Assembly (NCBI GenBank): GCA_015178975.1
Contig: WHVD01000002.1
Coordinates: 124,001 to 188,000 of the forward strand
Direction: 5' to 3'
DNA length: 64,000 bases
DNA from: Hysterangium stoloniferum
Taxonomy: Eukaryota; Basidiomycota; Agaricomycetes; Hysterangiales; Hysterangiaceae
The notes beneath the pieces are model-generated. The model had not been told where the DNA came from. It ran no database searches and saw only the letters and a program-made list of their open reading frames with translations. This document shows positions 27,501-64,000 of the stretch, piece by piece. How positions within the stretch are numbered: the first letter of the stretch is position 1; each line of letters starts with the position of its first letter. The translations under genes and the position numbers were made by a program.

Positions 27501-29880
27501 CAGAGTGCCGTCTTTTCCAATTAAATAAAGCTCTGGAAGATGAAAATGGCGGGTCATCATCATCATCAGAAGATCCATGTGGTAGGGCTTGCGAATCAAA
27601 TTGATTTCTCCCTCTAGGGATTCGATCACAATTGACGTCATTCAAGGAAATAGGAAGGCTCGGAACCGTAAATCCCAATACACATTTAAGGTCAAGCTTG
27701 GCCTATTGATGATATTACACCGTTGTTGAGCCGTGTGGTCTCCATGCGAGGCAAATCTTCCCTATTGTGCCAACATTCAGTAATTTAGAAGAATACAATA
27801 CCCTGGAATCGTTTCCGGAGAAGATCGACTCCGGATATCTTTAGTACGCCATGCTCATTGACAGTATATAGGCAGTGAGTGTTGCGGATCTCTTTAATGA
27901 GACGGCCCGGGAGCGTTTCACGCTGGAAGGCCTAATGTACACAGTGCATAATCCGACAGAATCAGTGGTGTGAAAAATGCCTCTTTTCCGATCACTCCCC
28001 GGGAGTCGTCTTGGAGAAGCCGAACTGCGTTGATTATACTGTTCCAGTGTTTTTAGGCCCCAAATAACCTACAATTTTTTGGTTGTCGGACTACGACCAT
28101 CAAATGCACATAGTTGTTTTAAGAGGGCTATGGAATATGTCTCTAACTTATAATCGCTGTTTAGTATGGCTCCCCATGTCAAGCCATTGTGGCACTGTTC
28201 TCCGTGGCAGTCATCCCCTACTTCCAGGAGATGACCCAGAGCTTCGTGTGGAAGGGTGGGGTCCATACATACACCACATAGTTTCTGGTCTGTGGTGATT
28301 GTGCTTCAATCAATGAGAATATATAGACTATCTGGCAAGTATTTGGTGATAATCACAGTGGTCAGTACAGCTAAGCGCATCGCCCGGACGGATGAAGACG
28401 TACTACCAAGGTAATGGATGTCCCGTATGGCGCAGGTACGCTCGTTGTACAGGAACGTTCCTGTCTAATTTGGAAGATCGTTGGACCAGGCGAACACAGC
28501 CAAATATGTAAATGACACGGATCGGCTATTCGTTTGTACCCGGTGAATCAGCCCAAATGCAGCCCAAGAAGCGCCTCTAGATGCCGGCATTCCGCAGCAG
28601 AACCACCTTCATGGTTCCTTCGACTTCCTCCCACACATACAGTCGAGCGATTCCGCGAGGTAATCAAGGAAATCAATTTGAAATCATCGCATGCGATGCA
28701 CGAGTTAGGGCTTTGGGCTTCGAAAAGGCAATACCAACAATTGTTACGATATTATCAAGGCTTATCAAAGCCGACCCTTCAGATTAACTGAGATCCCCCT
28801 ATAAAGTACTAAGGTCAATGGGCAGACATCATACAATTCCCTCCCGACGCGCATTCACAAGAAGCACACCTACTATGGTCGGCTACCACCATTACTCTCA
28901 AGACCAGTGGCAGGAAAACGAAGGTCATTACTCTCAAGCGCAAGGGGATCAACGTCAACATAATTCCCGAAGTGAAGAAGTTCCACCCAATCATATATCC
29001 CGAATGGAACCATTTATGCACTACGATACACAGTCCATCGGCGGGATGGACCCCCACATGCAAGCCTACAATAGTCCCCTTCTGACATCCTACCCCTTCC
29101 CTTCCAACCATGAAATCGCCCACGGCCAACACTGGGGGTCAGCTGGATATACTTCCCCTACTGCATCAGAAATAACCCACGTCTCATGTGCGTATCGATG
29201 GATATATATTGACAAAGTGCCTGACCAACACATCACCAGACCCGGATGACAACCTGTATGTTGGCTTGTTCGATGGCCCTTCAGACTATCGCAGTGCGTT
29301 TCTCATTGCGTGTCTCGATTTCCTGTTTGATTTACTTCCTTTCAGGTTATGATCCTGAGTCCTTTCGCGCTGGATCGAATCCCGTGGTACACCAAACATG
29401 GCGGGTCGATACTGGCGAAGAAGAAGCCACCCGACGATATTTTCACCGCGTTACAGATATGGAAAAGAGACAAATACAGCTTCCTCTGGCCCAACGACCA
29501 ATGTTCATATGCAAGGTCCCTAATTGCTCCGCATGGCTATTCAACAGAGCCCAAGTCAAGCAACATCTGCAAGACCATAATATAGTATTTGATAAACCAT
29601 TCAAATGCACTTGGTAAGAGTCTCTCCTCCGGGTATTTGATCAATGCGATTAAAACATCCTATCTTTGAATAGCGGCTCAGAGTTTGGACGCAGTGTCGA
29701 AGCGGATCGTCATGTCGAGGACAAGAGACCTTGCGATATATGGTGAGTTTCCCACTCGCTCTTATTATCTCAGTCAGATCATTAAACATGCCTCATAGTC
29801 ATCGTTCAGGTCGTAAGTCCAAGAACAGTTTAACTTGCCTTCGATGTTGCCGGCAGAGGTCGTCAGAATAAAGATTGCCC
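24540..29880 (+). repeat. Amplicon unit 1 (direct, diverged copy of unit 2)
   Basis: Landmarks recur in the same order in 29,880-33,540: GATATGTG.ATGACTCAGAAA (24,615 and 29,955), GTTTACACGTGTTG (24,992 and 30,280), TGAATGG.AAGGGGATTTCGTT (25,476 and 30,483), GGCGCACGATCCGTC (27,250; similar at 31,570) and the zinc-finger gene start (28,875 and 33,187). Unit 1 is longer, with extra sequence mostly between 25.7 and 27.1 kb. No gene other than the terminal zinc-finger gene was recognised; frames such as 27271-27678 are conserved only as DNA. Confidence 0.75.
28875..29871 (+). pseudogene. Zinc-finger family copy L1, frameshifted in exon 1
   Basis: Exon 1 starts at ATG 28875 (MVGYHHYSQDQWQENE), exon 2 is 29346-29613, exon 3 29674-29742, exon 4 29799-29871. 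It carries the family modules: CKVPNC...HLQDH finger, FKCTCGSEFG segment and CLRCC tail. Compared with the open copy at 36.1-37.2 kb there is one extra base near 29,235 that runs exon 1 into TGA at 29247. The intron 1 donor, GTTTGT in the intact copy, is altered to GCTTGT here. Exons 2-4 remain open. Could still be expressed in a shortened form. Confidence 0.75.
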
Positions 29881-32800
29881 GATTACTGATGTCGTAAGTC
29901 ACGGCGAGTCCGCCTGTGGATGCATGTGCTCTAGAGCAATAGCGTTCCCTTCCGATATGTGTATGACTCAGAAAGACTCCTTACATCCAGCACTTCACAA
30001 TGAACATCATCCCATTTCTCGTAATGTAATAATCCGTCTATATGGCGAATCCAATTAATTTCAGTCGAGCGTTTATGAAATAAAATATATGGTGATAACA
30101 GGCCCAAACTCTTGTCCCAGCATCGTGTTGTGCATTCGAAACACAGAAACACCGCAGAAACACCGCAGCTTTAGCACCAAAATTAAATCTTCTGGTGGCT
30201 TCCTCACCTGCCATGCCCCACGCCGTTATCATTTCGCTTGTGTATTTGGACATAATCAGAAGGGGAGTTCAATCAACGCAGTTTACACGTGTTGGGGCAC
30301 GGCAACACTAGATTCTACCGGACCGACGCTCAATTGATAAGCATCCAGCCGTTTCCCTGGCCCATGTTGTAAATCTCTCCTTATTTGGCCATGCGCGTCA
30401 TTAAATGGGGTGGCAGGGAACCGCCGCCTGTCTCCGAGCGCCCAAGATCCTTCATTGACTATCAGATCAATTTATAAGATATTGAATGGTAAGGGGATTT
30501 CGTTTATTTTCAAAGTGCGTTGGAGCCGTCTTGGGACTCACGGGCTATTGCACCACGGCCAGTATAAACAATCGTTTCCGTCTGGATTACTCGACATGCC
30601 GATGACCTTTCCCACAATTGACAGATTGACAAGTTGGAAATGAAAGAAGCTAGCGTATGAGCGATATTCAACATCATGTGATACCCAATATAAACTTTAG
30701 GCTTAGATCTTCATAGATTTTGATAGTTGTTAAATTTAGTCATGTCAACCTATTTACCCCGTTTTATCGATTAAAATGTCGAAAAACGGTCGTACTTTCA
30801 GATTCTTCTGATGCCAAGGTGTCCTTCCTCAAACGGATAGACATGGTCCGCCGCTGGTTAACATTCCAACGGTGACAGTTACCATCCGATCCGTTCATAG
30901 CGCTGACTTTCTCTGACAACTTGAAAGTTACACACAAGATATAAGTACTAAACAACAGAATAAAGAAAACTTAGAACGCAATTCTAAGATTAATGCTGAT
31001 ATCAAAATCTATCAAAGGGTCAAGCGTGTCACCCACACGAAAGAGCCTGAGGGGTTTCCTACCCGCCGAAATGTCAACATAAATAGCTCATGAATCCTAT
31101 TAATGCAGGCAATGCTTTTGGATGACGCGGCAACCATACCTGAAACGTACCTGGAAATACCACGTTGGCTCGCTGAAATCACATTAATGCATACCGTGCT
31201 TGTAAACAATGTAGCAATCATACACGTAACCATACCTGGACGCACCACGCTTGCCCTGAATGCGCAAGGGTGTGCAGTGATGCAATATAACGGGATAGCT
31301 ATAAAAGGCATTACCATGGACTTCAATTCTTCATGACGTGAGAGGGTCAAAAGTGCTAACCAATACAAAACAGTTTTTTTCCTGTTTTGCTGATGGATAT
31401 GATTTCACGAATGTATACACACTGACCCTTCATCGCACCAGACTTCAAGGTGCGAAGCACCTACATATAATAATATAATTTACATCCCAGTTCGCTGGAT
31501 CCACGGCTGGATGCTTGACATATCACGTTTCACAGTGAATTCTCAAAGGCACTTTCGTACAAGAACTTCGCAGGCGTATGATCCGTCGCGGTGTCACAGC
31601 TTGCTGATAGCCTCGTAACCTTTCTTTAGACCGTGAACCTCTCATTATTTGGCTCATTTCTGGTCAAGAACTAACTTGGTTATTATTCAGCCTGATATAA
31701 GTCTCACTTTCGACCGATCGCTGTCGCTAACATTGCGATTTCAAAACAAAGGTAACCTCAGGTTTGTCTTACAGCGCCATCTTATCCAACTAAATATAAG
31801 ATCTGTAGGATGAAAATGGTAGATCAGCACCATCAGACTATCCAAGAGCCTGCGAGTCAGATTTGCTTTTTGCCTCTAGGGATTGGATCACTCACTATTG
31901 ACGTCACTGTAAATAAATCGCAATCACGACTCCTAGTGTACATTTGATGTCAAGATTGACCTGTTGATGGTATCACACTGTAATAGTCTTAGTTGAATCG
32001 AGTGCCTTCCACACAATCCGAAGGCATGTCTTCTCCACGCGCCGACATTGAATAATTTGAAGCAATCCAATGGGTTGGAAACTTCCGGAGAATATTGACT
32101 CCGGATGTCTTTAGCACGGCATGCCCATTGGCCGTATATGGGCGGTGAGTGCTGCTTCTATGAACGGATCTCCTTACTGAGATGGCCGGAAAAGATTTCA
32201 CACTGAGTGCCTAAATAAGTGACGCAGTACAGAATCTGACAGAATCAGTGGCCCTGATAATGGATCCCCCACCGATAATGCCCAGGGACCATCTCAGTGA
32301 AGTTGAACACTGGGCAGATTATACTGGTCCGAGTGTTTTTACGCCCTGCATAACGTACGATTTTCGGCGTCGGGGTACAGCCATCAAGTGCAAGTAGTAA
32401 TTTAAGACGGTTCTGGAATGTTGTATCCAGTTTTTAATCACTTTTTTTTTATCGACGTCAATGTGAAGCCACTGTGGCATGTTCTCCGTGGGCAGTCTTT
32501 GCTTCCAGAGGATGACCTTTGTTTAGAAGGCTAGAGTCTTAACATACATAGATCACATGGGTTATGGTCCTTGGGCTCTATGGTTCGTCGACGGGTCGGT
32601 ATATAGACTATCTGGCAAGTATTTAGGGTGGTGATCACAATGTTCAGTGCAGCCAAACGCATCGCCAGGACGGATGAAAACATACTACCGAGGTAAGATA
32701 TGATATGGTCCGTAAGGCGCAGGCACGCTGTTACACTGGAAAGGACCATACCCAGTTTGGAAGATCGTTGGACCAGGCCACATGTACAGCTTCGTTTAAA

Positions 32801-33540
32801 ACATGTCTACGTCTAAAAATACGTCTATTTGGTGTTTGTTTGTTTTGTAGCCGGTCCTTCAACCCGAATGCGGGTGACGGGCGCCTCAAGATGCCGACAT
32901 TGCGAAGCAGACCCACTTCGTGGTTCCTTTAGATCTCCCACACATTCAGTCGAACAATGGCGCGAAGTATTAATTTCCAATCATCGCCCACGACAGCCTG
33001 GTCAGGGTTTTGGGCTTCGAAAAGCTATACTAACGACATGATTACGATATTATCAAGCTCATCAAAGCCGTATCTTCGAAATGAGAGAAATCATGTTATT
33101 TTTTCCATATATAAAGGGCCTGGGTGGATTTCTAAACATCCACACCCCCTCCGCCGACGCCCTTTCACAAGAAGCACACGTCTATTATGGGCAACGACGA
33201 CCACTACATTCAAGACCGTCAACGGAGACTACACTCAAGACCAGTGGCAGGTCAACGAAGATTATACTCAAGACCAGTAGCAGGTCAACGAAGACCATCA
33301 CTTCCAAGAACAGTGATATCAACATCAATATCATTCTCGAAGCGGAGAACCGAATATCCATCCCGAGCAGGGCCATTTATGAGCTACGATACACAGGACA
33401 TCGACGGGATGAACCATCACATGGAAGCCTAGATCATTAAGCATGTCTTACAGTCACCGTTCAGGTCTGAAGACCAAGAATAGTTTAACTTGTCGTTGAT
33501 GTTGTCCGTAGAGACCGTGAGAATAAAGGTTCCCCGATTT
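29881..33540 (+). repeat. Amplicon unit 2
   Basis: Second direct unit, ending in a deletion-broken zinc-finger gene. All of it also belongs to the left arm of the giant inverted repeat. Around 31,012-31,368 the minus strand shows a ladder of short GT...AG intervals (GTATGG...TTTCAG, GTACGT...AATAG), which suggests a multi-exon gene with tiny exons, present also at 62,059-62,420, but no protein could be assembled with confidence. Confidence 0.7.
33187..33511 (+). pseudogene. Zinc-finger family copy L2, internal deletion
   Basis: Begins MGNDDHY like copy R2, but the frame slips inside the 30-bp tandem repeat (QRRLHSRPVAGQ is the shifted reading) and later returns to PFMSYDTQDIDGM. At about 33,432 exon 1 is joined straight to intron 3 and exon 4, so the C2H2 finger is missing. 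The right-arm partner keeps about 720 bp at this point. Confidence 0.85.
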
Positions 33541-36107
33541 CACTCGATAGGTTTATTCAAACTTTTTTCGTCATAATGGCAGCGTCAGAGTTCGAACAAC
33601 ATTCCATGTATTACAAAAATACTAGTAGAGGTTAATATCTGATAATCTATTTAACGATCATTTATTTTTGAGCATAGCAAAAAATTGAGTCTATAGGCAC
33701 CCTTTTTTAAGAATTCTTTTTTTGTGTTCAATAAATTAAGTTGATCGGCGGCATATCTTTCGGCAATAGAAATAACAGATACAGTATTATACAGAAAACT
33801 GTTTAGTCTACTTCCAGGACGTTGTTGATGCCAACATCAAGGATTAGGTTTACTGTAGCTTCTGATCCCATTGTTCCGTCTAGGGGTAGGCTCTCCGTGT
33901 AAACCTCCCTTCTCAATACCAACACGCCTCAGCACCGCAAGAGGCTCAATTGTCTTCAGGGCATGATCGTGATTGATCTGTTCGCCACCCATACAAAATC
34001 GCAAGGGCTGAGCTCACGCCATCGAAGATGATCTTCAATAGGCGCCTCCTGACTGCTTCTCGTACGCCAGATGATTGTCATCGAGAGTGAAACTGCATAG
34101 CCCCACGCCATCAGAAAAACGGGAGGACTATTAGTGAGACTTACAAGATATACTGGCTGATATAATAATACAACAAGCCGGAGCTGCCAGGGTTCTGTAA
34201 GACTAAACTCCCTTGCCTGTTTGAGCCGGCTTATCATCTTGTCACGTGGTTTTCATGAACTTGTACCTTTCAAGTCGACCAAAATAATGATCGGAAAGAA
34301 TTTATGGCGATCATCTGCCCAAGCAAAAAGTAGCCAACAGCCTCCTGAAGATCCTGGGTGGCATAGGCTTAACCCCGCATATTTGCATCGTTGTCGCGGG
34401 GTATTTGCGAAGTGATATTTATTAGCAAACTGAATTCTGTGCCTCATATGACTATCAAGGATTCCATTCATCTATCAATATATCACTAACTGCAAGTCAG
34501 GGTCAATCATGATCGCCCTCTGAAGACAATTGAACCAATGCTCCCAGCCACCAGCACCTGGCATTCCTGTCACAGCCATAACCGCTCCACCGGAACATTC
34601 CGCCCACGTCAATAAAACATTCCTGCCGCAACTTTAGAAATATCCATCATGCCTTCACCGATTCCCTTTATAAATAACTCCAAAATTTCTTAAAAATGTG
34701 GAGATTAATAATAAATCAGCAATAAATATCCAAGAATCTAATATCCCTTAATAGATTATGTATTTCTCAAAATTATATACTGAATCCCTTTATCAATCTA
34801 GGGAACCATACACCATAAATTTAAAGGCATATAATTATTAAAGTCTTCAATTTCATATGTGCGACATTTATCCAATTATACGTGAGTGTCCCAAAATATT
34901 TCCATTGGACATCTTTATCGAATGCGAGTTGTCCCAAATTATCAAGAAGCTCCCAAAGTTTAACCCCCCAAGTCCCATCACTTCATCAGTTAAGCCAGAG
35001 GCTTCTGTGAAATTAGAAAGATGTCTACAAAGGATTCAAACTCTTGTGAGTTAAAACATGTTTTTCGGTGCCATTTACGCTGAGAGGGACCATGTAATTC
35101 TGGTCAGGGTTGGCTCGAGGGGGCCGAACATCATACCCTCACCCTCGACCCCTTGATGATAATAAATTACAAGCCACATTTCTTACAGAGTGAAACCAAT
35201 GTATCGCAGCTTCTCAGTCCACTATTCCTCGAGCATGTGTTGGCTCCGCTTATCCTTGGCTCACATTTTATTTTATTTTAATCACTGCCCACTGGCTCTA
35301 ATACCATTATCCTGAACGGCAGTCAATTTTTGTGTTCTGACCGGAAGGTGACGTGGCTACTGCCTGATGAAGAGATAAGGTTCACAGGGGTTCTCCAGGT
35401 ATTAAATACTATTATTAATTTATTGAGCTCTTAATCTTATAATTTGAATTCCCTGGAGGTGGGGTATCAATACTGACAACCAGTAGTGAAGTGAGGCGAC
35501 GCTCCGGTGAAACGACACTCCGATGCAGTGATGCGACCGGAAGGTGATCCGTTGCGACCGTATCAGGTCATGAAGAGTTCTCACTCACTGAGTGTTTATA
35601 TTAGCTCTGCAATTAAATACTTCAACACCATCAAAAATCACACAAGTGCTGTTCCTTTTGCAATTTCTTCGCGGGAGGATTTTGTGGCTGTGCTTGTTGC
35701 CTCGCTGATCATGTTTGTATACGTAGCAAGTGAAAGAACTTTGATTTATTAACGCCGCTCGTCCGCCAATAGTCACATCAATATTGCTTCGTAAGTAAAG
35801 CAAAAGGCTTTCGGAGTGGCGCTGTATCCGTAATTTTTAGTGGCGGAAAGAGGCAAACGAGGGCATGTCACTGATCAACTTTATTTATTAAATACAGAAA
35901 ATAATGATCTTAAAGGGATGTTTATGTAACCGTACTTTCCGGCCATGGTTGAAAATAAATGATCATTGGGTAGACTACCAGAGACCAACCACTGTTGTGA
36001 CTTCTATTTTATTTTGTGATACGTGGGATGTTATGCGAATGCTCGAGCCACCACTATTGCACGAGAAGTTGAATATAACCTGGGGTTGAGTCGGAGACTC
36101 GTCATTT
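33541..36107. other. Left-arm region without a recognised gene
   Basis: AT-rich, with poly-T runs near 33,700. Paired with 55,959-59,192. A plus frame at 35507-35752 encodes 81 residues with a hydrophobic segment (FVAVLVASLIMFVYVA); its right-arm counterpart is interrupted by about 75 extra bp. GATCATTTATTTT blocks occur near 33,655 and (inverted) 35,950. The empty site of the LTR at 57,642-58,143 is at about 34,535. Confidence 0.5.
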
Positions 36108-37193
36108 TTAAGGGGTCTGTTGGCGACATCGGCGGCAAGTTAGACTGTTCTTGATCTTACGGCCAGAACGATGACTATGAGACATGTCTAGCGATCTAGG
36201 TAAGACAGTAGGAGCGGGTGGGAAACTCACCATACATCGCAAGGTCTCTTATCCTCGATGTGGCGATCCGCTTCGACACCGCGTCCAAACTCTGAGCCAC
36301 TATGCGATGATAATAAGACGTATTAATCACAATATTCAAGTATCCAGAGGAGAGCCTCCTACCAAGTGCATCTGAACGGTTTCTGAAATATTATGTTATG
36401 ATCTTGCAGATGTGGCTTAATGTGGCTTCTGCTGTATAGCCATTTTGGACAGCCAGGGAACTTGCACATGAATATTGGTCGAGGGGCCTGAGGAACGTAC
36501 ATTCGCCGCTTTTCCTCATCCGTGAACCGGTGGATAAATCGTCGTATGACTTCTTCTGCGTTAGTATTGACTTCCCATGTTTGGTGTACCACGGAGTTCG
36601 ATCCAGTGCGAGAGAATGGAGGACCATAACCTGACAACAGAATTAGTTAAACTGGAAAGCTCAGGACAGACATAGGGCCGCGCACCCTGACGCTCTGAAG
36701 GACGATTAAACAAACCAACGTGCGGGTCGTCATCTGGGTGTGAGAATGCGTGGTCAGGAACTTTGTCAACATATTCTCGTCGCTGCGCACATGAAACGTT
36801 GGTCACTGCTGATCCAGTAGGGGAAGAAGCGCAGCTACCTGGTCCCTGGCATCGACCATGGGCTATTTCAGGGGTGGGACGGTGGATATATGATGTGAGA
36901 GGCTGGCTATAGTAGGTTTGGATGGGAGGGTCCACTGATCCGTTGTACTGTATGCTATAGCACACAGATGGCCTATCTGGGGACATGTGATTGGATAGAA
37001 CTTTCCCGCTTCCAGAATGATGTATATCCCACTGTCCTTGGGAGTAGTGAACATTGTTTTCCATTTCGCTGTTGTACTGTGCGTTGTAGGGCATACATGA
37101 CCTTTCTCGGGATGGGTGATTGGGTGGAACTTGCTCACTTCGAGAATGACGTTGATCCCACTGTTCTTGACAGAAATGAGAGTGGTTTTCCAT
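36108..37193 (-). CDS. Zinc-finger family copy L3, the only fully open copy (293 codons)
   Basis: Exons 37193-36716, 36630-36363, 36299-36231, 36174-36108; all three junctions are in phase and lengths total 882 nt including the stop. Introns have GTTTGT, GTAGGA and GTGAGT donors and CAG or TAG acceptors. The N-terminal ~155 residues are His/Ser/Gln/Asn/Tyr-rich with a repeated unit (QEQWDQRHSRSE; GQWDIHHSGSG). The C-terminal third holds a C2H2 finger C215-x4-C220-x12-H233-x3-H237, then C247-x-C249-x12-H262, then C269-x2-C272-x12-C285-x2-C288, a C4 arrangement. The nine Cys and three His suggest a nuclear, nucleic-acid- or protein-binding factor; no named family was recognised. All other copies in the window are damaged or cut off. 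Confidence 0.82.
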
Positions 37194-39082
37194 GATAGCT
37201 GTGTTATTCTTGTAAGAGGGCGTCGTCGAGGGAAGTGAGTGGTGTCTGATCATCGACCTTAGGCCTTTTTATTTGGAAAGAATCTAATAACTATAATAGC
37301 GGGACGCGTAGTTATCGCTGGCATCGCTTTATGAAGCTTATAGCTCTAACCAGGGTATGTCTGCGAGGATACCCGAGGAAACCTTATGTAACTACCTTGT
37401 GAATCAGTTCTGTTAGAATATGTGGGAGGAAGTCAAGAAGAATCATTCAACAGTTCTATGGATACTTTAATCGTGATGGTTATCCATTCAGATCTTTGAT
37501 TTGGATGACAAGATGGCACTGAGAGAAAAGGTTACCCTTCTTCCCAAATTCGGAGGTGAAGAAGCTTCAAGCGGTCTTTTCGGGATCATGACTCATCGCT
37601 GCACAGCGTAGGTTGGTAGGGCATTGAAACATCTCTCTAACTCAATAGTAGACAGTAGTAAAAACCTCCGCATACTCGGAGTGGCTATGCGCATGTTGTG
37701 CCATCTTGACGGATTGTGCGGCTTACCAAGCTCTTGTACGAGGATAAGAATTAGATGTCCTTTGAGACTTTGATATGTCGAGTATCCGTTGATTTACCAC
37801 ACATGACGATTGGCACAAACCCCATCACGGAGTTCTCCATGTCTCAGTAATGGTCCATGGTGAAGGATTATACCGGAAACTGATCAGTGATCGAGTTTAA
37901 TTTCGAAGTTAGGCATGGTCATTGAATGGGGCGCATCAAGTACAGGCTGTTGACTGGGGGGTACTCTGTCGGATCACATTCAGATATATTTCGAAAATTT
38001 AGCGACTTACTCCACGGAAAGATCGGATACAGATGTTCAAAAACAACTGACACGATCAAACGATGTCAGCCAGTAAGGAGTTGCGGTGCCGTATTGACGA
38101 GACCACACTAACTAACAACAGTAAATATTCCTTTCAAGCAATAGAGTGGTGCCAGTTGAATAGAACATCCAGATTAAAGTGTTGTGAATCATAGTACACG
38201 AATAAATTCCGGAACCACCAAATCCCTTCGATCCGTTACGACAATGTAGAGGGATCCAGGGGGGTCAAAGTATTCGAAGCACTTGAGCGATAATAATTCC
38301 CATAACTGAACCTTAACTGTATTTATGCGTCAGAGGCATCGCGGTAGATTCGGTCACTTCCCCTTGAAAACGATCAAGGTATTATGATAGGTCGCGGAGA
38401 AGAGATATCAGGTACGAAGGATATACACACCATCAATCAATATATCATCCTCGATAGATACATCGTGTCACTTGTTGGGGGCAACTTCAAGTTATATTTC
38501 GAGGCAAAACTCGGTGCTGTTTCCGTCGCATCACCCTGACGCCTCCGATAAGTGGTATCATGCATCGTTCCACGAAAGAGATGTGCGTTTGGGAGCCGAA
38601 GTCGTCAAATTCATGCATATAAAGATGTTTTCCAGTATAGGGAATGATGTATATCTAAAAACCGGGATATAAGTTAAAGTTAGATTATCTGAACTTCGAC
38701 AACGTAAAGTCTCACTGAAGTACCGTTCTGCTAGTCATGCAATATTGTCACTATACGTTGAATACATGAGCTCACCTCGAGAAGGTTTATCCAACCGAGA
38801 TGTGAAGTGTGATAGAAGTAGATGGTACGTATTCGTAATACGAGACCCGTAGCGACCATGAGATCGTGTCTTCTGAGCCTCAAACAACGAAGTGAAACGT
38901 GTTCAAACCGCGTCAGTTTTACTCGGTAATCATTGTTATAACAGGATGAAGATCGGGGTGATGGAAATCATTGATAACTTGCTTTGAAAACGAGATCACA
39001 TCTGGCATCGTAAGTTATCAAAAAGGACTTGGTCTTCCCGTGCCCAGAACTCAAGGAATCACTCACATGTGTTACACAATTT
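37194..39082. other. Left-arm region upstream of L3, no gene recognised
   Basis: Promoter side of L3 plus about 1.8 kb with only short frames (for example 38472-38672). Paired with 53,024-54,881. The block GGGATCATGACTCATCGCTG (37,583) belongs to a dispersed sequence family listed in the findings. Confidence 0.45.
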
Positions 39083-39498
39083 TTATTTATGTCGAAGGAT
39101 CTTAGGCATGGGCTTTGATGCTCCAGGAAAATTTGTAGTTATGTTGATTAATACTGTCGTGCCCCGAAACCTGCCGCATGTGGCCAGTGGCTCTTGACAT
39201 CCTCGATAAGCATAAATGTAATACAAAAAGAATTCTCCAAACAACCTTGATGCATTGATGAGCTGAAAATCACTCATCAGCTCAGAAACTAGTTGATACT
39301 TCTTGAGATGCTTGAGTGCAGACCGTAAAGCCATGTAATTTCCGATATATATAATCTCATCGTATTGTGGGAAGGTCTAGCAAGCAGTATAAAATGTTGA
39401 TCAGGGATTTGGCCGTGGGGGAAGGAGGAAGGACTTGAAGTTGAAGCCAGAAAGGTCGAAAACCAAGTGAGGCTGATACTACTAGAGATCAGCAACAT
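39083..39498 (-). pseudogene. Conserved unknown ORF, left-arm copy (frameshifted)
   Basis: The minus frame ends LINITTNFPGASKPMPKILR and matches the 146-codon frame at 52583-53023. An extra base near 39,360 relative to the right arm breaks it into two frames (39289-39498 and 39083-39334). No domain recognised. Confidence 0.5.
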
Positions 39499-50068: not shown

Positions 50069-50499
50069 AAATACATTTACCGTGATCGGGTGGCGATGGA
50101 AGACCAGATGAATAGTGAAACAGTGAAGCTATGCCCATACGTCCCTTTAAGTTGCGATTTGACCTAAAACCCACGGCACCCGGGTTTTATTTTTTTGGAA
50201 ACCGAACCTTCTCACAAAGTAAGGAACATAAAATGTCGTTCATACCCCAATAATAACGGTCCTAACATACATTTTATAGGATTATTTTCGTTTAAATCTG
50301 AGCGTCCAATGTGTTCTCAGGCCACATCTCCGATGAGTCATTCAGGACACTTAACATGCTGTTAAGCTCATAATTGTGTGAGTTACACAAATGAGACTAA
50401 AATGAGTCAAAGCGTCGTTTATGCTAAGGACAGATGCCGTGGAGGGTGAGTAGCAGAAAATAAATTTGAGAAACGGAAATTGGTCATAGAATGATTAAT

Positions 50500-52029: not shown

Positions 52030-52582
52030 ATCTCATTGTAGGTTATATCGTCCGAATATACCAATACATATTATATTCTTACGATAAGATCTTTAATTTC
52101 CGAACGGACTGCCTGAAAGACCTTCGCAGGCGCATGATCCGTCGCGGTGTCACTGTCACAGCCTCTGATAGCCTCTGATAGCCTCGTGCACGAACTTCTC
52201 GTGGCTTTTGCTCATATCTAACTTGGTGACTACCCACAAGTCTGATGCCCTAGCGACCTATACTATTGGGAACTTGCGCAGACCACAGTAGATATTAGAA
52301 TATAACCTGGCTTGTATCTACGAGTGAACTACTGGATGGGGAAGAAGGTTCTGGAAGGGATGACAGAGATATTACTAAAGCTATGTTAAGTATGTTCCAA
52401 GATATTCTATAATATTCTAGGGATGTCAGGTTGATTACCAACATATACTACGACGACGAAGACCCAACATCAGAGGTCTCCCCATATAGTGAGGGAGGCA
52501 GGAAGACACATCTTGTGCGGACCATACAGGGGAGCGGCAACCTCCGTATACAGTGAAGTCGCGTCACTTCACTCAATAGACT

Positions 52583-53023
52583 ATGGAACGGACGCAGACT
52601 TGTCCTTATCACCGTCACCATAAATACAGTTATGTTACTAATCTCTCGACCTTTCTGGCTTCAACAACTTCAAGTCCTTCCTCCTTTCCCCACGGCCAAA
52701 TCCTGATCAACATTTTATACTACTTGCTAGACCTTTCCACAATAGATGGAATTATATATATCGGAAATTACGTGGCTTTACGGCCTGCACTGAAACATCT
52801 CAAGAAGTGTCAGCCAGTTGATGAACTGATGAATGATTTTCAGCTCATCAATGCATCAAGGTTGTTTGGAGAATTCTTTTTGTGTTACATTTTTGCTTAT
52901 CGAGCATGTCAAGAGCCACGGGCCACATGCGGCAGGTTTCAAGGCACGATAGTATTAATCAACATAACTACAAATTTTCCTGGAGTATCAAAGCCCATGC
53001 CTGAGATCCTTCGACATAAATAA
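52583..53023 (+). CDS. Conserved unknown ORF, right-arm copy (146 codons, open)
   Basis: Contains HGQILINILYYLLDLSTIDG, FQLINASRLFGEFFLCYIFA and a conserved end (TTNFPGVSKPMPEILRHK). Moderately hydrophobic, with one possible membrane segment. The left-arm copy has a one-base insertion. A TATA-like or intron context was not established; the real start may be later than 52583. Confidence 0.45.
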   Translation: MERTQTCPYHRHHKYSYVTNLSTFLASTTSSPSSFPHGQILINILYYLLDLSTIDGIIYIGNYVALRPALKHLKKCQPVDELMNDFQLINASRLFGEFFLCYIFAYRACQEPRATCGRFQGTIVLINITTNFPGVSKPMPEILRHK

Positions 53024-54881
53024 AAATTGTGTGACACACATATGTGAGTGGTTCCTTGAGCTCTGGGCACGGGAAGACCAAGTCCTTTTTGATAACTTAC
53101 GATGCCAGATGTGATCTTGTTTTCAAAGCAAGTTATCAATGATTTCCATCACCCCGATCTTCATCCTGTTATAACCGTGACTACCGAGTAAAACTGACGC
53201 GGTTTGAACACGTTTCACTTCGCTATTTGAGGCTCAGGAGACACGATCTCATGGTCGTTACGGGTCTCATATTACGAATACGTACCATCTACTTCTATCC
53301 CGTTTCACATCTCAGTTGGATAGGCCTTAACAGAATGGTACGTAAGTGAGACTTTACGTTGCCGAAATTCAGATAATCTAACTTAACTTATATCCCGGTT
53401 CTTTAGATATACATCCCTTCCTATACTGGAAAACATCCTTATCTCCATGGACTTCACGACTTCGGCTCCCAAACGCACACCTCTGTCGTGGAATGATGCA
53501 TGATATCACTTTTCGGAAGCGTCAGGGTGGTGCGGCAGAAACAGCACTGGTTTTTGCCTCCAAATATCACTTGAACTCCCCCCCAACAAGTGCCACGATG
53601 TATCCATCGAGGATGATATATTGATTGATGGTGCGTATATCCTTTGTACCTGATATCTCTTCTCCAAGACCTATCATAATGCCTTGATCGTTTTCAAGGG
53701 GAAGTGGCCGAATCTATGCGATGCCTCTGACGCATAAATACAGTTAAGGTTCAGTTATGGGAATTATTATCGCTCGAGTGCTTCGAATACTTTAGCCCCC
53801 CTGGATCCCTCTACATTGTCGTAACGGATCGAAGGGATTTGGTGGTTCCGGAATTTATTCGTGTACTATGATTCACAACACTTTAATCTGGATGTTCTAT
53901 TCAACTGGCATCACTCTATTGCTTGAAAGGAATATTTGCTGTTGTTAGTTAGTGTGGTCTCGTCATTACGGCTGCGGCAACTCCTTACTGGCTGACATCG
54001 TTTGACCGTGTACGTTGTTTTTGAACATCTGTATCCGATCTTTTTATGGAGTAAGTCGCTAAATTTTCGAAATATATCTGAATGTGATCCGACAGAGTAC
54101 CCCCCAGTCAACAGCCTGTACCTGATGCGCCACATTCAATGTACATGCCTAACTTCGAAATTAAACTCGATCACTGATCAGTTTCCGGTATAAGCCTTCA
54201 CCGTGTTGGTACTGAGACATGGAGAACTCCGTGATGGGGTTTGTGCCAATCTTCATGTGTGGTAAATCAACGGTTACTCGACATATCAAAGTCTCAAAGG
54301 ACATCTAATTCTTATCCTCGTGCAAGACCTTGGCAAGCCGCACAATCCGTCAAGATGGCACAGCATGCGCACAGCCACTCCGAGTATGCGGAGGTTTTTA
54401 GTCAAGGACTACTGTCTAATTTTGTGACTATTGAGTCAGCCCTCACGCCCCACCGACCTACGCTGTGCAGCGACGCGTCATGATCCCGAAAAGACTGCTT
54501 GAAGCATCTTCGCCCCCGAATTTTGGAAGAAGGGTAACTTTTTCTCTCAGTGCCATCTTGTCATCCAAATCAAAGATCTGAATGGATAACCATCACGATT
54601 AAAGTATCCATAGAACTGTTGAGTGATTCTTCTTGACTTCCTCCCACACATTCTAACAGAACTGATGCACGAGGTAGTTACATAAAGGAAGCAATTTCCT
54701 CGGGTATCCTCACACAACATACACTGGTTAAGAGCTATAAGCTTCATAAAGCGATGTCAGCAATAGGTACGCGTCCCCATTATATTTATTAGATTTTTCC
54801 AAATAAAATGGGCTAAGGTGGATGATCAGATACCATTCACTTCCCTCGACGACGCCCTCTTACAAGAATAACACAGTTATC
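53024..54881. other. Right-arm region upstream of R3, no gene recognised
   Basis: Partner of 37,194-39,082. Short frames only. Confidence 0.45.
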
Positions 54882-55958
54882 ATGGAAAACGACTATTATT
54901 TCTGTCAAGAACAGTGGGATCAACATCATTCTCGAAGTGAGGAAGTTCCACCCAATCGCCCATCCCGAGAAAGGTCATGTATACCCTACAACACACAGTA
55001 CAACAGCGAAATGGAAAACAATGTTCACTCCCAAGGACAGTTGAATATACATCATTCTGGAAGCGGGAAAGTTCTACCCAATCACATGTCCCAAGCAAGG
55101 CCATCTGTGCGCTACAGCATACAGTACAACGAAGCAGTGGACCCTCCCATCCAAACCTACTATAGCCAGCCTCTCACATCATATATCCACCGTCCCACCC
55201 CTGAAATAACCCATGGTCGATGCCAGGAACCAGGTGGCGGCGCTTCCCCTACTGGATCAGTAGTGACCAACGTTTCATGTGCGCAGCGATGAGAATATGT
55301 TGACAAAGTTCCTGACCACACACTATCAGACCCAGATGACGACCCGCACGTTGGTTTGTTTAATCGTCCTTCAGAGCGTCGGGGTGCGCGGCCCTAGGTC
55401 TGTTCTGAGCTTTCCAGTTTAACTAATTTCGTTGTCAGGTTATGGTCCATTCTCTCGCACTGGATCGAACTCCGTGGTACACCAAACATGGGAAATCGAT
55501 ACTAATGCAGAAGAAGTCATACGACGATTTATCCACCGGTTCACGGATGAGGAAAAGCGGCGAATATACGTTCCTCAGGCCCCTCGACCAATGTTCATGT
55601 GCAAGTTCCCTGGCTGTCCAAAATGGCTATACAGCAGAAGCCACATTAAGCCACATCTGCAAGATCATAACATAATATTTCAGAAACCATTCAGATGCAC
55701 TTGGTAGGAGGCTCTCCTCTGGATACTTGAACATTGTGATTAACACGTCTTATTATCATCACATAGTGGCTCAGAGTTTGGACGCGGTGTCGAAGCGGAT
55801 CGCCACATCGAGGATAAGAGACCTTGCGATGTATGGTGAGTTTCCCACCCCCTCCTACTGTCTTATCTAGATCGCTAGACATGTCTCATAGTCATCGTTC
55901 TGGCCGTAAGATCAAGAACAGTCTAACTTGCCGCCGATGTCGCCAACAGACCCCTTAA
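54882..55958 (+). pseudogene. Zinc-finger family copy R3, single nonsense codon
   Basis: Mirror of L3: exon 1 from ATG 54882 (MENDYYFCQEQWDQHHS), exon 2 55439-55703, exon 3 55767-55835, exon 4 55892-55958, with the same splice phases. A TGA at about 55,290 (SCAQR then stop) stands where L3 has CGA (Arg). Downstream the DDDPHV junction, the C2H2 finger (CKFPGC...HLQDH) and the C4 tail (CRRC) are intact. A shortened protein from a later start, or stop-codon readthrough, cannot be excluded. Confidence 0.8.
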
Positions 55959-57641
55959 AAATGATATGAGTCCCCGACTCAACCCAGGTTATATTCAACT
56001 TCTCGTGCAATAGTGGTGGCTCGAGCGTTCGCATAACATTCCACGTATCACAAAATAAAATAAAAGTCACAATAGTGTTGGTCTCTGATAGTCCATCCAA
56101 TGATCATTTATTTTCAATCATGGCCGGAAATTACGGTTACATAAACATCCCTTTAAGATCATTATTTTCTGTATTGAGTAAATAAAGTTGATTAGTGACA
56201 TGCCCTCGTTTGCCTCTTTCCGCCACTAAACATTACAGATACAGCGCCACTCCGAAAGCCGTTTACTTTACTTACGAAGCAATGTTGATGTGACTAATTG
56301 GCGGACGCGCGGCGTTAATAAAAGTTCTGTCACTTGCTTGCTACGTATACAAACATGATCAGCGAGGCACTTCATCTCTATCCGAAAAAGGGCAACAAGC
56401 ACAGCTACAAGATCCTCCCGCGAAGAAATTAAAACAAAGCTTTGGTAATTGGTTTTTACTGAAACCTACGATATCATTGTTCCAGAAAAAATCTTCAACA
56501 TTGCAAAAGGAACAGCACTTGTCTGATTTTTGACGGTGTCGAAGTATTTAATTGCACAGCTAATATAAACTCTCAGTGAGTGAGAACTCTCTTCATGACC
56601 TGATACGGTCGCAACGGATCACCTTCCGGTCGCATCACTGCATCGGAGTGTCGCTTCACCGGAGCGTCGCCTCACTTCACTACTGGTTGCCAGTATTGAT
56701 ACCACCTCCCAGAAATTCAAATTATAAGATTAAGAGCTCAATAAATTAATAATAGTATTTAATACCTGGAGAACCCCTGTGAACCTTATCTTTTCATCAG
56801 GCAGTAGCCACTCGTCACCTTCCGGTCAGAACACAAAAATTGAGACTGCCGTTCAGGGTAATGGTATTAGAGCCAGTGGGCAGTGATTAAAATAAAATAA
56901 AATGTGACCAAGGATAAGCGGAGCCAACACATGCTCAAGGAATAGTGGACTGAGAAACTGCGATACATTGGTTTCACTCTGTAAGAAATGTGGCTTGTAA
57001 TTTATTATCATCAAGGGGTCGAGGGCGAGGGTGTGATGTTCGGCCCCCTCGAGCCAACCCTGACCAGAATTACATGGTCCCTCTCAGCGTAAAGGGCACC
57101 GAAAAACATGTTTTAACTCACAAGAGGTTGAATCCTTTGTAGACATATTTCTACTTTCACAGAAGCCCCTGGCTTGACTGACGAAGTGATGGGACTTGGG
57201 GGTTAAGTTTTGGCAGCTTCTTGATAATTTGGGAAAACTCGCATTCGATAAAGATGCCAATGGAAATTTTTTGGGACACTCACGTATAATTGGATAAATG
57301 TCGCACATATGAAATTGAAGACTTTAATAATTATATGCCTTGAAATTTATGTATGGTTCCCTAGATTGATAAAGGGATTCAGTATATAATTTTGAGAAAT
57401 ACATAATCTATTAAGGGATATTGGATTCTTGGATATTTATTGTTGATTTATTATTAATCTACACATTTTTAAGAAATTTTGGAGTTATCTATAAAGGGAA
57501 TCCGTCAATGCACGATGGAGATTTCCAAAGTTGCGGCAGGAATGTTCTATTGACGTGGGGGGCATGTTCCGGTGGAGCGGTGGAAATAGGTTATTGCTGT
57601 GACAGAAATGTCAGGTACTGGTGGCTGGCAGCATTGGTTCA
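55959..57641. other. Right-arm region downstream of R3, no gene recognised
   Basis: Partner of 34,540-36,107. The frame 57084-57308 (minus) mirrors 34857-35054, without a known domain. Confidence 0.45.
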
Positions 57642-58143
57642 TGTAAGCCTGGCGCCCCAGTTGTTAAATTTGATGATGAAACACACCTTTTTATAGGGGG
57701 AGTCCACCAATTATTGCAACTTTTCATATGAAGATGCTAATTGTGGACCATGCATTTGGAGGTTAATGTGTGTCAGAACCACTATACACCTCCCAGAGCA
57801 TCCAACCTATATTGTCAGGAGGTGCTACACTAACTGACACAAGATATTGAGACACAAGTACTTTTATTACAAGCTTATTAAACCCTTGTATATTGTGTAT
57901 TGCAATAGAGTCAACTCATACTATTTTTAATACCAGTCTTACCCATTCTCCTTTTGTGCCACTCCTTTGTGCCACTCCTTTTGTTCTAGCACGTGATCAC
58001 AGCATATATAGCCTAGGTAGTTTTCCTTCTCTTTCCTTACCGTACGCTGCATCTGCCTGTATCCTGTTCTTGTTCTGGACAATACACCGTGGTCCTGTCA
58101 ACTCGTGTGACCGCCAGTGATCCCAATTGACAACAGGATTACA
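57642..58143. mobile_element. LTR-like insertion (502 bp), right arm only
   Basis: TGTAAGCC...GGATTACA with 5-bp inverted ends, flanked by GTTCA at 57637-57641 and 58144-58148. The left arm shows the empty site at about 34,535. Contains CATATATAGCC (TATA-like, about 58,004) and a tandem TTTGTGCCACTCC. About 230 bp of its interior is related to the LTR at 40,209-40,481, so the two families share an ancestor. Confidence 0.85.
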
Positions 58144-59192
58144 GTTCAATTGTCTTCAGAGCACGATCATGATTGATCCTGACTTGCAGCTAGTGATATA
58201 TTGATAGATGAATGGGTCCTTGATAGTCATATGAAGTGCAGAATTCAGTTTGCTAATAACTATCACTTCGCAAATTCCCCGCGACACCGATGTAAATATG
58301 CGGGGTTAAGGATCTTCAGGAGGCTTTTGGCTACTTTTGGCTTGGGTAGATGATGGCCATAAATTCTTTCCGATCATCATTTTCGTCGACTTGAAAGGTA
58401 CAAGTTCATGAAAACCACGTGACAAGATGATAAGCCGGCTCAAACAGGCAAGGGGAGTTTACTCTTACAGAACCCTTGCAGCTCCGGCTTGTTGTATTAT
58501 TATATCAGCCAGGATATTTTGCAAGTCTCACTAAAAATAACTATGTCAACTATTCACCTCCCGTTTTCTGATGGCGTGGGGCTATGCAGTTTCACTATCG
58601 ATGACAATCATCTGGCGTACCAGAAATAGCCAGGAGGCGCCTATTGAAGATCATCTCTGATGACGTGAGCTCAGCCCTTGCGATGTTGTATGGGTGGCGA
58701 ACAGATCAATCACGATCATGCCCTGAAGACAATTGAACCTCTTGCGGTGCTGAGGCATGTTGGTATTGAGAAGGTTTAGGTTACGCAAAGGTATAGTCGC
58801 ACGGAGAGCCTGCCCCTAGACGGAACAATGGGATCAGAAGTTACAGTAAACCTTATCCTTGATGTTGGCATCAACAACGTCCTGGAAGTAGACTAAGTGG
58901 TTTTCTGTATAAGACTGTATCTGTTATTTCTATTGCGTAAAGAAGGGTATGCCGCCGATCAACTTAATTTACTGAGGACAAAAAAAGAAAATCTTAAAAA
59001 GGGTGCCTATAGACTCAATTTTTCTGTTATGCTCAAAAATAAATGATCGTTAAACAGATCATCAGATATTAACCTCTATTAGTATTTTTGTAATACATGG
59101 AATGCTGTGTGAACTCTGACGCTGCCATTATGATGAAAAAAGTTTGAATAAACCTAAAGAGTGAAATCGGGGAACCTTCATTCTCACGGGCT
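58144..59192. other. Right-arm region, no gene recognised
   Basis: Partner of 33,541-34,535; only short frames. Confidence 0.45.
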
Positions 59193-60238
59193 CTACGGAC
59201 AACATCGGCGACAAGTTAAACTGTTCTTGGTCTTACGACCTGAACGGTGACTGTAAGACATGCTTAATGATCTGAATGAGAAAATAAGCGAGGGGGAAAC
59301 TTACCATACATCGCAGGGTCTCTTGTCCTCGACATGACGATCCGCTTCGACACTGCGCCCAAACTCTGAGCCGCTATTCGAAGATAGGATGTTTTAATGG
59401 CGCCGCTCAAATATCCGGACGAGAGACTCTTACCAAGTGCATTTGAATGGTTTCCGAAATATTATATTGTGGTCTTGCAGATGTTGCTTGACTTGGGCTC
59501 TGTTGAATAGCCATGTGGGGCAATTAGGGATCTTGCATATGAACATCGGTCGTTGAGCCAGAGGAAGCTGCATCCGTCTCTTTTCCATATCCGTAACACG
59601 GTGAATATATCGTCGCGTGGCTTCTTCTTCGCCAGTATCGACCTGCCATGTTTGGTGTACCACGGGATTCGATTTAGCGCGAAAGCACCCAGGATCATAA
59701 CCTGAAGGAAGTAAATAAAATAACAAAGTCAAGACACGCAATGAGGAACGCACTGCGATAGTCTGAAGAGACATCGAACAAGCTAACATACGGGTTGTCA
59801 TCTGGGTCTGATGGTGTGTTGGTCAGGAGCTTTGTCAATATACACTCATCGATACGCACATGAGACGTGGGTTATTTCTGATGTAGTAGGGGAAGCACAT
59901 CCAGCTGACCCCCAGTATTGGCCATAAGCGATTTCGAAGTTCGTGGGGAGGGGAGGGGATGTGAGAGGGTGGCTATTGTAGGCCTCCATGCGATGGTCCA
60001 TCCCGTCGATGTCCTGTGTATCGTAGCTCATCAATGGCCCTGCTCGGGATGGATATTCGGGCGGAACTTCTCCGCTTCGAGAATGATATTGACGTTGATA
60101 CCACCGTTCTTGGGAGTAATGGTCTTCGTTGACCTGCCACTGGTCTTGAGTGTAAATTTCGTTGACCTGCCACTGGTCTTGAGTGAAGTTTTCGTTGATC
60201 TGCCACTGGTCTTGAGTGTAGTGGTCGTCGTTGCCCAT
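59193..60238 (-). pseudogene. Zinc-finger family copy R2, with exon-1 minisatellite and stop
   Basis: ATG 60238 (MGNDDHYTQDQWQINE). The exon 1 N terminus is a 30-bp tandem repeat giving TQDQWQINEN, TQDQWQVNEI, TQDQWQVNED. TGA at about 59,847 follows CAYR, where copy L1 has TGG; the extra base seen in L1 is also present. Exon 2 (ending 59433), exon 3 and exon 4 keep the finger CKIPNC...HLQDH and the CRRCC tail, stopping at 59195-59193. Its left-arm partner L2 has lost exons 2-3. Confidence 0.8.
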
Positions 60239-63200
60239 AATAGACGTGTGCTTCTTGTGAAAGGGCGTCGGCGGAGGGGGTGTGGGTGTTCGGAAATCCA
60301 CCCAGGCCCTTATATATGGAAAAAATAATATGATTTCTGTCATTTCGAAGATACGGCTTTGATGAGCTTGATAATATCGTAATCATGTCGCTAGTATAGC
60401 TTTTCGAAGCCCAAAGCCCTGACCAGGCTGTCGTGGGCGATGATTGGAAATTAATACTTTGCGCCATTGTTCGACTGAATGTGTGGGAGATCTAAGGGGA
60501 ACCACGAAGCGGTTCTGCTTCGCAATGTCGGCATCTAGAGGCGCCCGTCACCCGCATTCGGGTTGAAGGACCGGCTACAAAACAAACAAACACCAATAGA
60601 CATATTTTTAGACATAGACGTGATTGACATGTTTTAAACGAAGCTGTACATGTGGCCTGGTCCAACGATCTTCTAAACTGGGTATGGACCTTTCCAGTGC
60701 AACGACCGTGCCTGCGCCTTACGGACCATATGCATATTTTACCTCGGTAGTATGTTTTCATCCGTCCTGGCGATGCGTTTGGCTGCACTGAACATTGTGA
60801 TCACCACCCTAATACTTTCCAGATAGTCTATATATCGACTTGACGAACCATAGAGCCCGAGGATCATAACCCATGTGGTCTATGCATGAAGGTCACCCTC
60901 TGGAAGGAGGGACTCCCCACGGAGAACAATGCCACAGTGGCTTCACATTGACATCGATAAAAAACATGTGATGCCAAGCTGGATACACATTCCAGAACCG
61001 TCTTAAATTACTACTTGGCCGTACCCCGACGCCGAAAATCGTACGTTATGCAGGGCGTAAAGATACTCGGATCAGTATAATCTGCCCAGTCTTCAGACTT
61101 CACTGAGATGGTCCCTGGGGATTATCGGTGGGGGATCCATTATCAGGGCCACTGATTCTGTCAGATTCTGCACTGCGTCACTTATTTAGGCACTCAGCGC
61201 GAAATACTGTCCGGCCATCTCAATAAGGAGATCCGTTCATAGAAGCAACACTCACCGCCCATATACGGCCAATGGGCATGCCGTGCTAAAGACATCCGGA
61301 GTCAATATTCTCCGGAAGTTTCCAATCCATTGGATTGCTTCAAATTATTCAATGTCGGCGCATGGAGAAGACATGCCTTCGGATCGAGCCGAAGGCACTT
61401 GAATTCAACTAAGACTATTACAGTGTGATACCATCAACAGGTCAATCTTGACATCGAATGTACACTAGGAGTCGTCATTGCAATTTATTTCCAGTAACCT
61501 CAATAGTGAGTGATCCAATCCCTAGAAGAAGAAAGCAAATCTGACTCGCAGGCTCTTGGATAGTCTGATGGTGCTGATCTACCATTTTCATCCTACAGAT
61601 CTTATATTTAGTTGGACAAGATGGCGCTGTAAGACAAACCTGAGGTTACCTTTGTTTTGAAATTGGATTTCGCAATGTTAGCGACAGCGGTCGGTCGGAA
61701 ATCAGACTTATATCAGGCTGAATAATAACCAAGCTAGTTCTTGACCAGAAATGAGCCAAATAACGAGAGGTTCACGGTCTGAAGAAAGGTTACGAGGCTA
61801 TCAGCAAGCTGTGACACCCCGACGGATCATGCGCCTGCGAAGCTCTTGTAGGAAATTGCCTTGGGAATCCACTGTGAAACGTGATATGTCAAGCCTCCAG
61901 CGGTTTATTCCTATCCGGTGTGATTTCGGCTAGTATTCCTGCAGAGGTTCTGTCCATTAAAGGACGTAGATCCAACGAACTGAGATGTAAATTATATTAT
62001 ATTCATGTGCTCCGCACGTTGAAGTCTGCTGCGATGCAGGGTCAGTGTATATGCATTCGTGAAATCATATCCGTCACCAAAACCGGAAAAAAACTGTTTT
62101 GTATTGGTGAGAACTTTTGGACCTTCTCACGTCATCAAGAATTTTAAGTCCATGGTCAGGCCTTTGAGGCTATGCCGCTATTTTACATCATTGCACACCC
62201 TCGCATTCAGGGCAAGCGTGGTGCTTCCAGGTTTGTTACTGGCATGATTGGTATATTATTTACAAGCACGGTCTGCATTAATATGACTTCAGTGACCCAA
62301 CATGGTATTTCCAGGTATGTTTCAGGGCTGCTGTATCATCCAAATGCATTAATAGGGGTTCATAAGCTATTTATGTTGACATTTGGGCGGGTAGGAAATC
62401 CCTCAGCCTCCTTCGTGTGAGTGACACGCTTGACCCTTCGATAGATTTTGAAATACACAGTCAATCATTAGATTTGATATCAGCTTTAATCTTAGGATTG
62501 CGTTTTAAGTTTTTTTTATTCTGTTGAGTACTTATATCCTGTGTATAACTTTCAAGTTGTCAAAGAAAGTCGGCGCTATGAACGGATCGGATGGTATCTG
62601 TCCCCGTTGGAATGTTAACCAGCGGCGGACCATGTCTATCCGTTTGAGGACGGACACCTTGGCATCAGAAGAGTCTGAAAGTACGAACGTTTTTCGACAT
62701 TTTAATCGATAAAACGGGGTAAATAGGTTGACATGACTAAATCTATCAAAATCTATGAAGATCTAAGCCTAAAGTTTATATTGGGTATCACATGATGTTG
62801 AATGTCGCTCATACGCTAGCTTCTTTCATTTCCAACTTGTCAATCTGTCAATTGTGGGAAAGGTCATCGGCATTTCGAGTAATCCAGACGGAAACGATTG
62901 TTTATACTGGCCGTGGTGCAATAGCCCGTGAGTCCCAAGACGGCTCCAAGGCAGTTTGAAAATAGACGAAATCCCCTTACCATTCAATATCTTATAAATT
63001 GATCTGATAATCAATGAAGGATCTTGGGCGCTCGGAGACAGGGGGCGGTTCCCTGCCACCCCATTTAATGACGCGCATGGCCATATAAGGAGAGATTTAC
63101 AACATGAGCCAGGGAAGTGGCTGGATGCGTGTTTGTGCTTATCAATTGAGCGTCAGTCCGGTAGAATCCAGTGTTGCCGTGCCCCCAGCACGTGTAAACC

Positions 63201-63574
63201 GCATTGATTGAACTCCCTTCTGATTATGCCCAAAGAAGCGAAATGATAGCGCGGCGTGGGGCGTGGCAGGTGAGGAAGCCACCAGAGGATTTAATCTTGG
63301 TGCTAAAGCTGCGGTGTCTCTGTGCTTCGAATCCACAACACGATGCTGGGATAAGAGTTTGGGCCTGTTATCACTATATTTTATTTCATAAACGCTCGAC
63401 TGAAATTAATTGGATTCGCGATATAGACGGATTATTACGTTACGAGAAATGGGATGATATTCAGTGTGAAGTGCCGGATGTAAGCAGTCTTTCTGAGTCA
63501 TACACATATCGGAAGGGAACGCTATTGCTCTAGAGCACATGCATCCACAGGCGGACTCGCCGTGACTTACGACA
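60239..63574. other. Right-arm partner of unit 2, no gene assembled
   Basis: Mirror of 29,880-33,186. Includes frames paired with the left arm (62826-63059 with 30410-30643; 62059-62420 with 31012-31368) without recognised domains, and one dispersed block at 61,800-61,845. Confidence 0.5.
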
Positions 63575-64000
63575 TCAGTAATCGGGCAATCTTTCTTCTG
63601 ACGGCCTCTGCCGGCAACATCGAAGGCAAGTTAAACTGTTCTTGGACTTACGACCTGAACGATGACTATGAGGCAAGCTTAATGATCTGACTGAGATAAT
63701 AAGAGCGAGTGGGAACTCACCATATATCGCAAGGTCTCTTGTCCTCGACATGACGATCCGCTTCAACACTGCGTCCAAACTCTGAGCCGCTGTGCAAAGA
63801 TAGGATGTTTTAATCGCATTGATTAAATACCCGGAGGAGAGACTCTTACCAAGTGCATTTGAATGGTTTATCAAATACTATATTATGGTCTTGCAGATGT
63901 TGCTTGACTTGGGCTCTGTTGAAGAGCCATGCGGAGCAATTAGGGATCTTGCACATGAACATTGGGCGTTGGGCCAGAGGGAGCTGCATTTGTCTCTTTT
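63575..64000 (-). CDS. Zinc-finger family copy R1, partial (5' end beyond window)
   Basis: Exon 2 (to 63850), exon 3 63789-63721, exon 4 63665-63575. Mirror of L1. The TAA that ends L1 is changed (GAATAA to GAAGAA), so the frame runs six codons further and ends RLPDY. The tail CLRCC is intact. The N terminus lies outside the window, so its integrity is unknown. Confidence 0.7.

Follow-up and report, generated by a model that had tools for sequence, protein, structure and literature searches.

A diverging 41-kb palindrome in Hysterangium stoloniferum, probably an old inverted segmental duplication, with a zinc-finger-like gene family in its arms

According to the account in PMC7999016, the instability of palindromes is greatest where long arms of high similarity are combined with a short spacer or none at all, and 6-kb inverted repeats separated by a 280-bp spacer are stable in wild-type yeast. 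For human fold-back inverted duplications, spacers of 766-70466 bp are given in PMC3907307, with a median of 3428 bp across 21 sequenced junctions. The subject here is a palindrome of about 41 kb in the genome assembly of the fungus Hysterangium stoloniferum (111 Mb, 554 contigs), found through the analysis of a 64,000-nucleotide stretch (positions 124001-188000) of contig C112, which has 2,014,536 bases; this stretch is referred to as the window. Its sequence points to a probable origin by inverted segmental duplication, seeded long ago by fold-back or template switching in a region that is rich in transposons and has been reshuffled, and the arms are now diverging. The locus looks like an inverted duplication that is ageing in the ordinary way, not like a palindrome maintained by special means. 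A literature search, judged by titles and the openings of abstracts, turned up no account of it.

Coordinates are given in window numbering, and flanks of 20 kb (left) and 46 kb (right) were added to determine the extent of the repeat. Self-BLAST of the window with these flanks, together with pairwise alignment, revealed a contiguous palindrome from 26186 to 67087, consisting of arm 1 (26186-44655, forward strand), a 2.8-kb spacer and arm 2 (47473-64000 in the window and on to 67087 outside it, reverse strand). Within the window alone, self-BLAST returned the inverted pairs 29463-31505/64000-61965, 31503-33431/61904-59979, 33431-34535/59273-58144, 34531-35664/57641-56500, 35662-39697/56430-52441 and 40482-44655/51600-47473, and identity across these six is 88.9-93.8% in the BLAST alignments, well above chance. 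The original prediction, a giant imperfect inverted repeat, is borne out by these pairs, and the repeat reaches past the window end. The outer edges of the arms are sharp and both arms terminate internally in the 2-Mb contig. Low-copy DNA is present twice, in opposite orientation, on a single contig, as in an inverted segmental duplication. Some of the genome searches used here were scored in full (5 of 5 and 16 of 16 candidates, 13 of 13 for STE3, 10 of 10 for homeodomains and 30 of 30 for the gene family described below); in others 40 of 66, 143, 1162, 757, 211 or 357 candidates were scored, and copy counts from these are lower bounds.

Global alignment of the arms gave an ungapped identity of 93.6% (1114 mismatches in 17327 columns, comprising 728 transitions and 386 transversions; the poorly aligned segments 39690-39875 and 40060-40490 were excluded), close to the earlier estimate of about 5% difference. 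The alignment contains 14 gaps of at least 25 bp within 26186-44655, with the extra stretch in arm 2 in nine cases and in arm 1 in five; a pair of 177- and 181-bp gaps near 39.7-40.1 kb is in part a shuffled segment and not two simple indels. Private transposon insertions with empty sites opposite had been predicted, and two of these stand when the flanks are read by eye, each being bordered by short target duplications. Arm 1 carries an insertion of a high-copy element of about 272 bp (40210-40481, forward strand, 5-6 bp target duplication), of which there are many genome copies at about 90% identity among the best 40 of 1162 candidates, and arm 2 is empty at this position. Arm 2 carries a 507-bp insertion (57642-58148, reverse strand), with arm 1 empty at 34530, and this insertion contains a diverged (78%) copy of the 272-bp element. 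The prediction did not hold for a 706-bp difference at 33430, which is read as a loss from within a gene of arm 1; a related copy on contig C188 retains the stretch.

The C188 copy, at 10-25 kb of that contig, is a separate locus or a strongly diverged allele; it is roughly collinear with a single arm over 27.4-41.4 kb, and its pieces are 68-84% identical to arm 1. Another relative, the third copy of 35.7-39.7 kb, lies on the same contig as the palindrome (C112:291.5-294.9 kb) and is 88-92% identical to arm 1. In a three-way alignment with C188 over 28.4-38.6 kb (8297 columns), the distance between the arms is 0.058, while the distances from arms 1 and 2 to C188 are 0.146 and 0.140, and private changes have accumulated on both sides (241 in arm 1 and 197 in arm 2; p=0.037 for inequality). 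Each arm contains three copies of one small C2H2-like gene, of which g1 and g2 share an orientation and g3 is opposite. In a tree of ten copies, with all seven inner branches well supported, the two arm copies of g1 group as sisters, as do those of g3, these being the genes for which the relation can be read given the deletion in arm-1 g2, and g1, g2 and g3 separated before the split from C188. By the C188 distances and by this tree, the arms are each other's closest relatives. The g1 and g2 copies on C188 have an unusual intron sequence in common, which suggests conversion between neighbours.

Three parts make up the spacer (44656-47472, no strand assigned): the terminal portion of the 2.5-kb unit copy that belongs to arm 1, a small inverted repeat, here called the inner repeat, and one more copy, in direct orientation, in which 46332-47472 resembles 43959-45150 at 87%. 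The inner repeat (45579-46329, with halves at about 45579-45963 and 45967-46329) is 81% identical and thus more diverged than the arms, and the right part of the spacer (46332-46996) matches the start of arm 2 (48150-47473) in inverted orientation at 82%. Fold-back would leave a short spacer bordered by inverted homology, as seen here, and the 2.8 kb of this one falls within the range given for human fold-back junctions (PMC3907307), which counts for such an origin. With a spacer of this size and 6% mismatch, no special protection would be needed in our judgement. Identity in 500-column windows of the arms drops from 0.95 to 0.86 approaching the centre. The more diverged centre is read as the older seed copies, in inverted orientation, at which the arms were duplicated.

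On this reading, the starting point would have been a single-arm cluster of the zinc-finger-like genes, of the kind kept in diverged form on C188, and the likely seed was the 2.5-kb unit that lies at the centre today, already present there as two older copies in inverted orientation. A broken or stalled end may have folded back or switched template between these inverted units, by which at least 18.5 kb of adjoining DNA would have been copied in inverted orientation beside itself, with the 2.8-kb spacer as the presumed remainder of the loop. Independent mutation of the arms, private insertions and the loss of one gene copy in arm 1 would have followed.

The palindrome lies between the members of an outer inverted pair. 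The left member of this pair (16240-20832, forward strand) has its partner at 84666-91303, outside the window, and the two are 86.2% identical over 3967 columns when a 374-bp repeat is left out (17005-17388 excluded), with 500-bp bins at 17.0-20.8 kb ranging from 85 to 97%. Outside that repeat, a query of 15.5-19.0 kb matched C112 itself and the inverted partner in C112:210491-215303 among the best 40 of 757 candidates. The outer pair may have arisen in the same event as the arms, giving a possible original span of about 75 kb; this is put no higher than possible since the one long match between the layers is merely 73% identical and locally repeated. The 374-bp element itself (17010-17383) is self-palindromic (85% self-complementary) and occurs in many genomic copies. 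Beside the outer layer is a further inverted duplication (18896-20487/21016-22608) which, at 96.8% identity, is probably younger.

Several observations weigh against a simple history of one event followed by independent ageing. At the outer layer, the outermost bins (16.2-17.0 kb) reach only 38-67% globally, with local matches there of 83% and 76%, and between the layers (20.8-26.2 versus 67.1-84.7 kb) only one match in inverted orientation is long (21098-22662/81722-80182), representing a diverged copy of the locally repeated unit at 18.9-20.5 kb, the rest being short pieces. Towards the centre it is no longer clear that either arm has the other as its nearest relative. The 2.5-kb unit is repeated in tandem on C235 and has a rearranged form on C33; its copies on C112, C33 and C235 differ by 9-13% between contigs. 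Between C33 and one of the C235 copies, the difference is 0.004 in a single 250-column block and 0.036-0.165 in the others, so that the copies appear to exchange sequence between contigs; such ectopic exchange blurs the age of the centre and confounds its comparison with that of the arms. Divergence along the arms is also uneven: arm windows are overdispersed (dispersion 3.8, permutation mean 0.9), the ten longest identical runs total 1066 where the 99% permutation value is 1000, and, with C188 as the third sequence, arm-arm and shared differences are heterogeneous over 13 bins, each of 600 columns (chi2 58.9, p=3.5e-8). Old conversion, between the arms or with other copies, may therefore have happened. 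This unevenness, the exchange among central units and the low synonymous divergence of g3 between the arms (3.5 changes at 185 sites) are what would be expected if the palindrome were actively maintained by arm-to-arm gene conversion, as in primate sex-chromosome palindromes and as the original prediction had suggested as a possible reason for its persistence. Active maintenance is nonetheless unlikely, as the arms are only 93.6% identical, private changes have built up in both, and neither run lengths nor the comparison of arm divergence with C188 revealed a long recent tract, the longest identical run, at 119 bp, being close to the permutation mean of 113 and below the 95% point of 148. Nor is the GC content of the arms, in 2-kb bins, clearly above that of the left flank, which was the flank compared (means of about 0.44 and 0.45, the latter 0.44 without a GC-rich bin at 10-12 kb). 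Strong recent conversion is opposed by these data, and old, patchy conversion may have occurred.

Repeated central units are also places where assemblies misjoin, and the further copies on C33 and C235 raise the prospect that paralogous arms, or two nuclear haplotypes, were joined in error. This is improbable. Neither the window nor the related loci checked contain any N, both arms end inside the contig, the outer pair brackets the palindrome, and central units that are 9-13% apart can be separated by long reads. The left flank at 10.5-14.5 kb has no second full-length copy among the best 40 of 211 candidates, only a 425-bp dispersed repeat, and an assembly fold-back would show arms of about 100% identity without private insertions, unlike those found. 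Judged from the assembled sequence, the arm identity, the empty sites, the arm ends within the contig and the lack of a second full-length left flank among the candidates scored support the earlier view of a real, aged inverted duplication. The ends of the palindrome are symmetric (TCAGCTTGGC...GCCAAGCTGA) and a transposon with terminal inverted repeats (TIRs) adjoins the right one, features that would also suit the terminal repeats of one giant mobile element. However, no target duplication was seen by eye at 26185/67088, the related pieces on C188 and at C112:291k start and stop at other points, and a Pfam scan of 10 open reading frames from the arms gave nothing above cut-off (one weak match, E=0.072, fell under its own cut-off), which makes a giant element the least credible of these alternatives and highly unlikely. 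The old inverted segmental duplication remains the preferred reading.

As to the type of locus, the suggestion of a mating-type region is not supported. The 15 exon matches to STE3, grouped by us into four STE3-like receptor genes, are all on C553, and the four Homeobox_KN matches are on C519 and C150 only, leaving none on C112. The telomere pattern was matched at 11 places, of which none lies at either end of C112, the contig for which both ends were covered; the end of a contig is not necessarily that of a chromosome. A short internal TTAGGG run occurs at C112:544633-544668.

In arm 1, g1 is located at 28875-29871 (forward strand; exons 28875-29187, 29240-29293, 29346-29613, 29674-29742 and 29799-29871; 258 aa model), the remnant of g2 at 33187-33540 (forward strand, with 706 bp missing at 33430) and g3 at 36108-37193 (reverse strand, 286 aa model). 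The arm-2 copies are g3 at 54882-55958 (forward strand, 283 aa model), g2 at 59193-60238 (reverse strand, 275 aa model) and g1 at 63575-64000 in the window and on to 64591 outside it (reverse strand, 264 aa model). In arm-1 g3, the acceptor of intron 1 is changed from AG to AC and an in-frame stop from TGA to CGA, and with the loss of this stop the 51-bp intron becomes readable through in frame. Used as a query against the genome, the g2 protein gave 35 exon matches at E values up to 0.001, which we grouped into 11 loci: seven on C112, three on C188 and one on C191, with none elsewhere in the assembly at that threshold. Six of them sit in the palindrome, confirming that the arms carry an amplified gene family. 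Ten of the 11 loci were modelled (the deleted arm-1 g2 being the one without a model), and nine of the ten have an open frame of 241-286 codons in five exons, while g1 on C188 is frameshifted and was excluded from the table of nonsynonymous and synonymous rates.

The nearest match of the g2 protein, over residues 192-264, is the C2H2 zinc-finger protein Krueppel-like factor 5 (PDB 2ebt, E=0.0004; next best 0.013). The C-terminal half has one CX4CX12HX3H motif, read by eye, that is common to both and forms a C2H2-like finger, but a second finger-like stretch and a CX2C..CX2C tail deviate from the usual C2H2 pattern, and no Pfam family was found in the three of ten spliced proteins that were scanned. 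This zinc-binding half is under coding constraint: between the arms, g1 and g3 together show 9 nonsynonymous changes at 575 sites there, a quarter of the arm-wide average (1114/17327, p=6e-8). The N-terminal half, with 50 changes at 701 nonsynonymous sites, equals the arm average (p=0.43), so that neutral drift suffices to explain it; positive selection on this half was considered on the basis of 50/701 nonsynonymous versus 6/190 synonymous changes (p=0.044, uncorrected and from rounded counts) and rejected. With one half of the protein free to evolve and the other held, and an NLR-type gene 4.6 kb beyond arm 2, the family without a Pfam match could conceivably mark a fast-turning conflict locus of driver or self-recognition type, in which inverted duplication and ectopic exchange would serve as an engine of diversity, though from the sequence such a role seems quite unlikely.

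The right outer edge of the palindrome, at 67087, adjoins the TIR transposon, which is about 2.3 kb long and has relatives dispersed in the genome among the best 40 of 357 candidates, and a Plavaka transposase is found in the flank. Taken with the STE3-like receptor genes and the homeodomain matches, this transposase points to an agaric-type basidiomycete. The NLR-type gene (71658-74810, outside the window) has an NPHP3_N/NACHT match followed by ankyrin repeats made up of similar units of about 99 bp. In the left flank, the 425-bp high-copy dispersed element (12870-13295) is 94-98% identical to its listed copies.

Among described systems is a palindrome of Zymoseptoria tritici, situated within the 500-550 kb interval of accessory chromosome 14, that is likewise nuclear, fungal and of similar scale, and is flanked by transposon remnants, comparable to the TIR transposon at one edge here; the account of it, however, places it in a large inserted segment with virtually no genes (PMC3681731), whereas the present arms contain genes with open frames. 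Human fold-back inverted duplications share the spacer of a few kb between inverted copies and the inverted homology at its border, but are reported from patients, span megabases and lie mostly beside terminal deletions (PMC3907307), while the palindrome described here is small, old and internal. In primates, palindromes of the X chromosome also have arms of tens of kb with genes inside them, but their median arm identity is given as 99.953%, with GC raised over the flanks (PMC8981503); the 93.6% found here is below the 99% that would mark a gene-converted palindrome of that type, and GC, compared with the left flank only, is not clearly raised. The gene family, lacking a Pfam match, could be tested in the source species. 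Against these systems, the palindrome is ordinary in kind and a useful case for how such structures age: it is a fungal example old enough, and with a single-arm relative, for two-sided divergence, one-sided gene loss and accumulating insertions to be followed, and it suggests that gene conversion is not required for the maintenance of a long palindrome.

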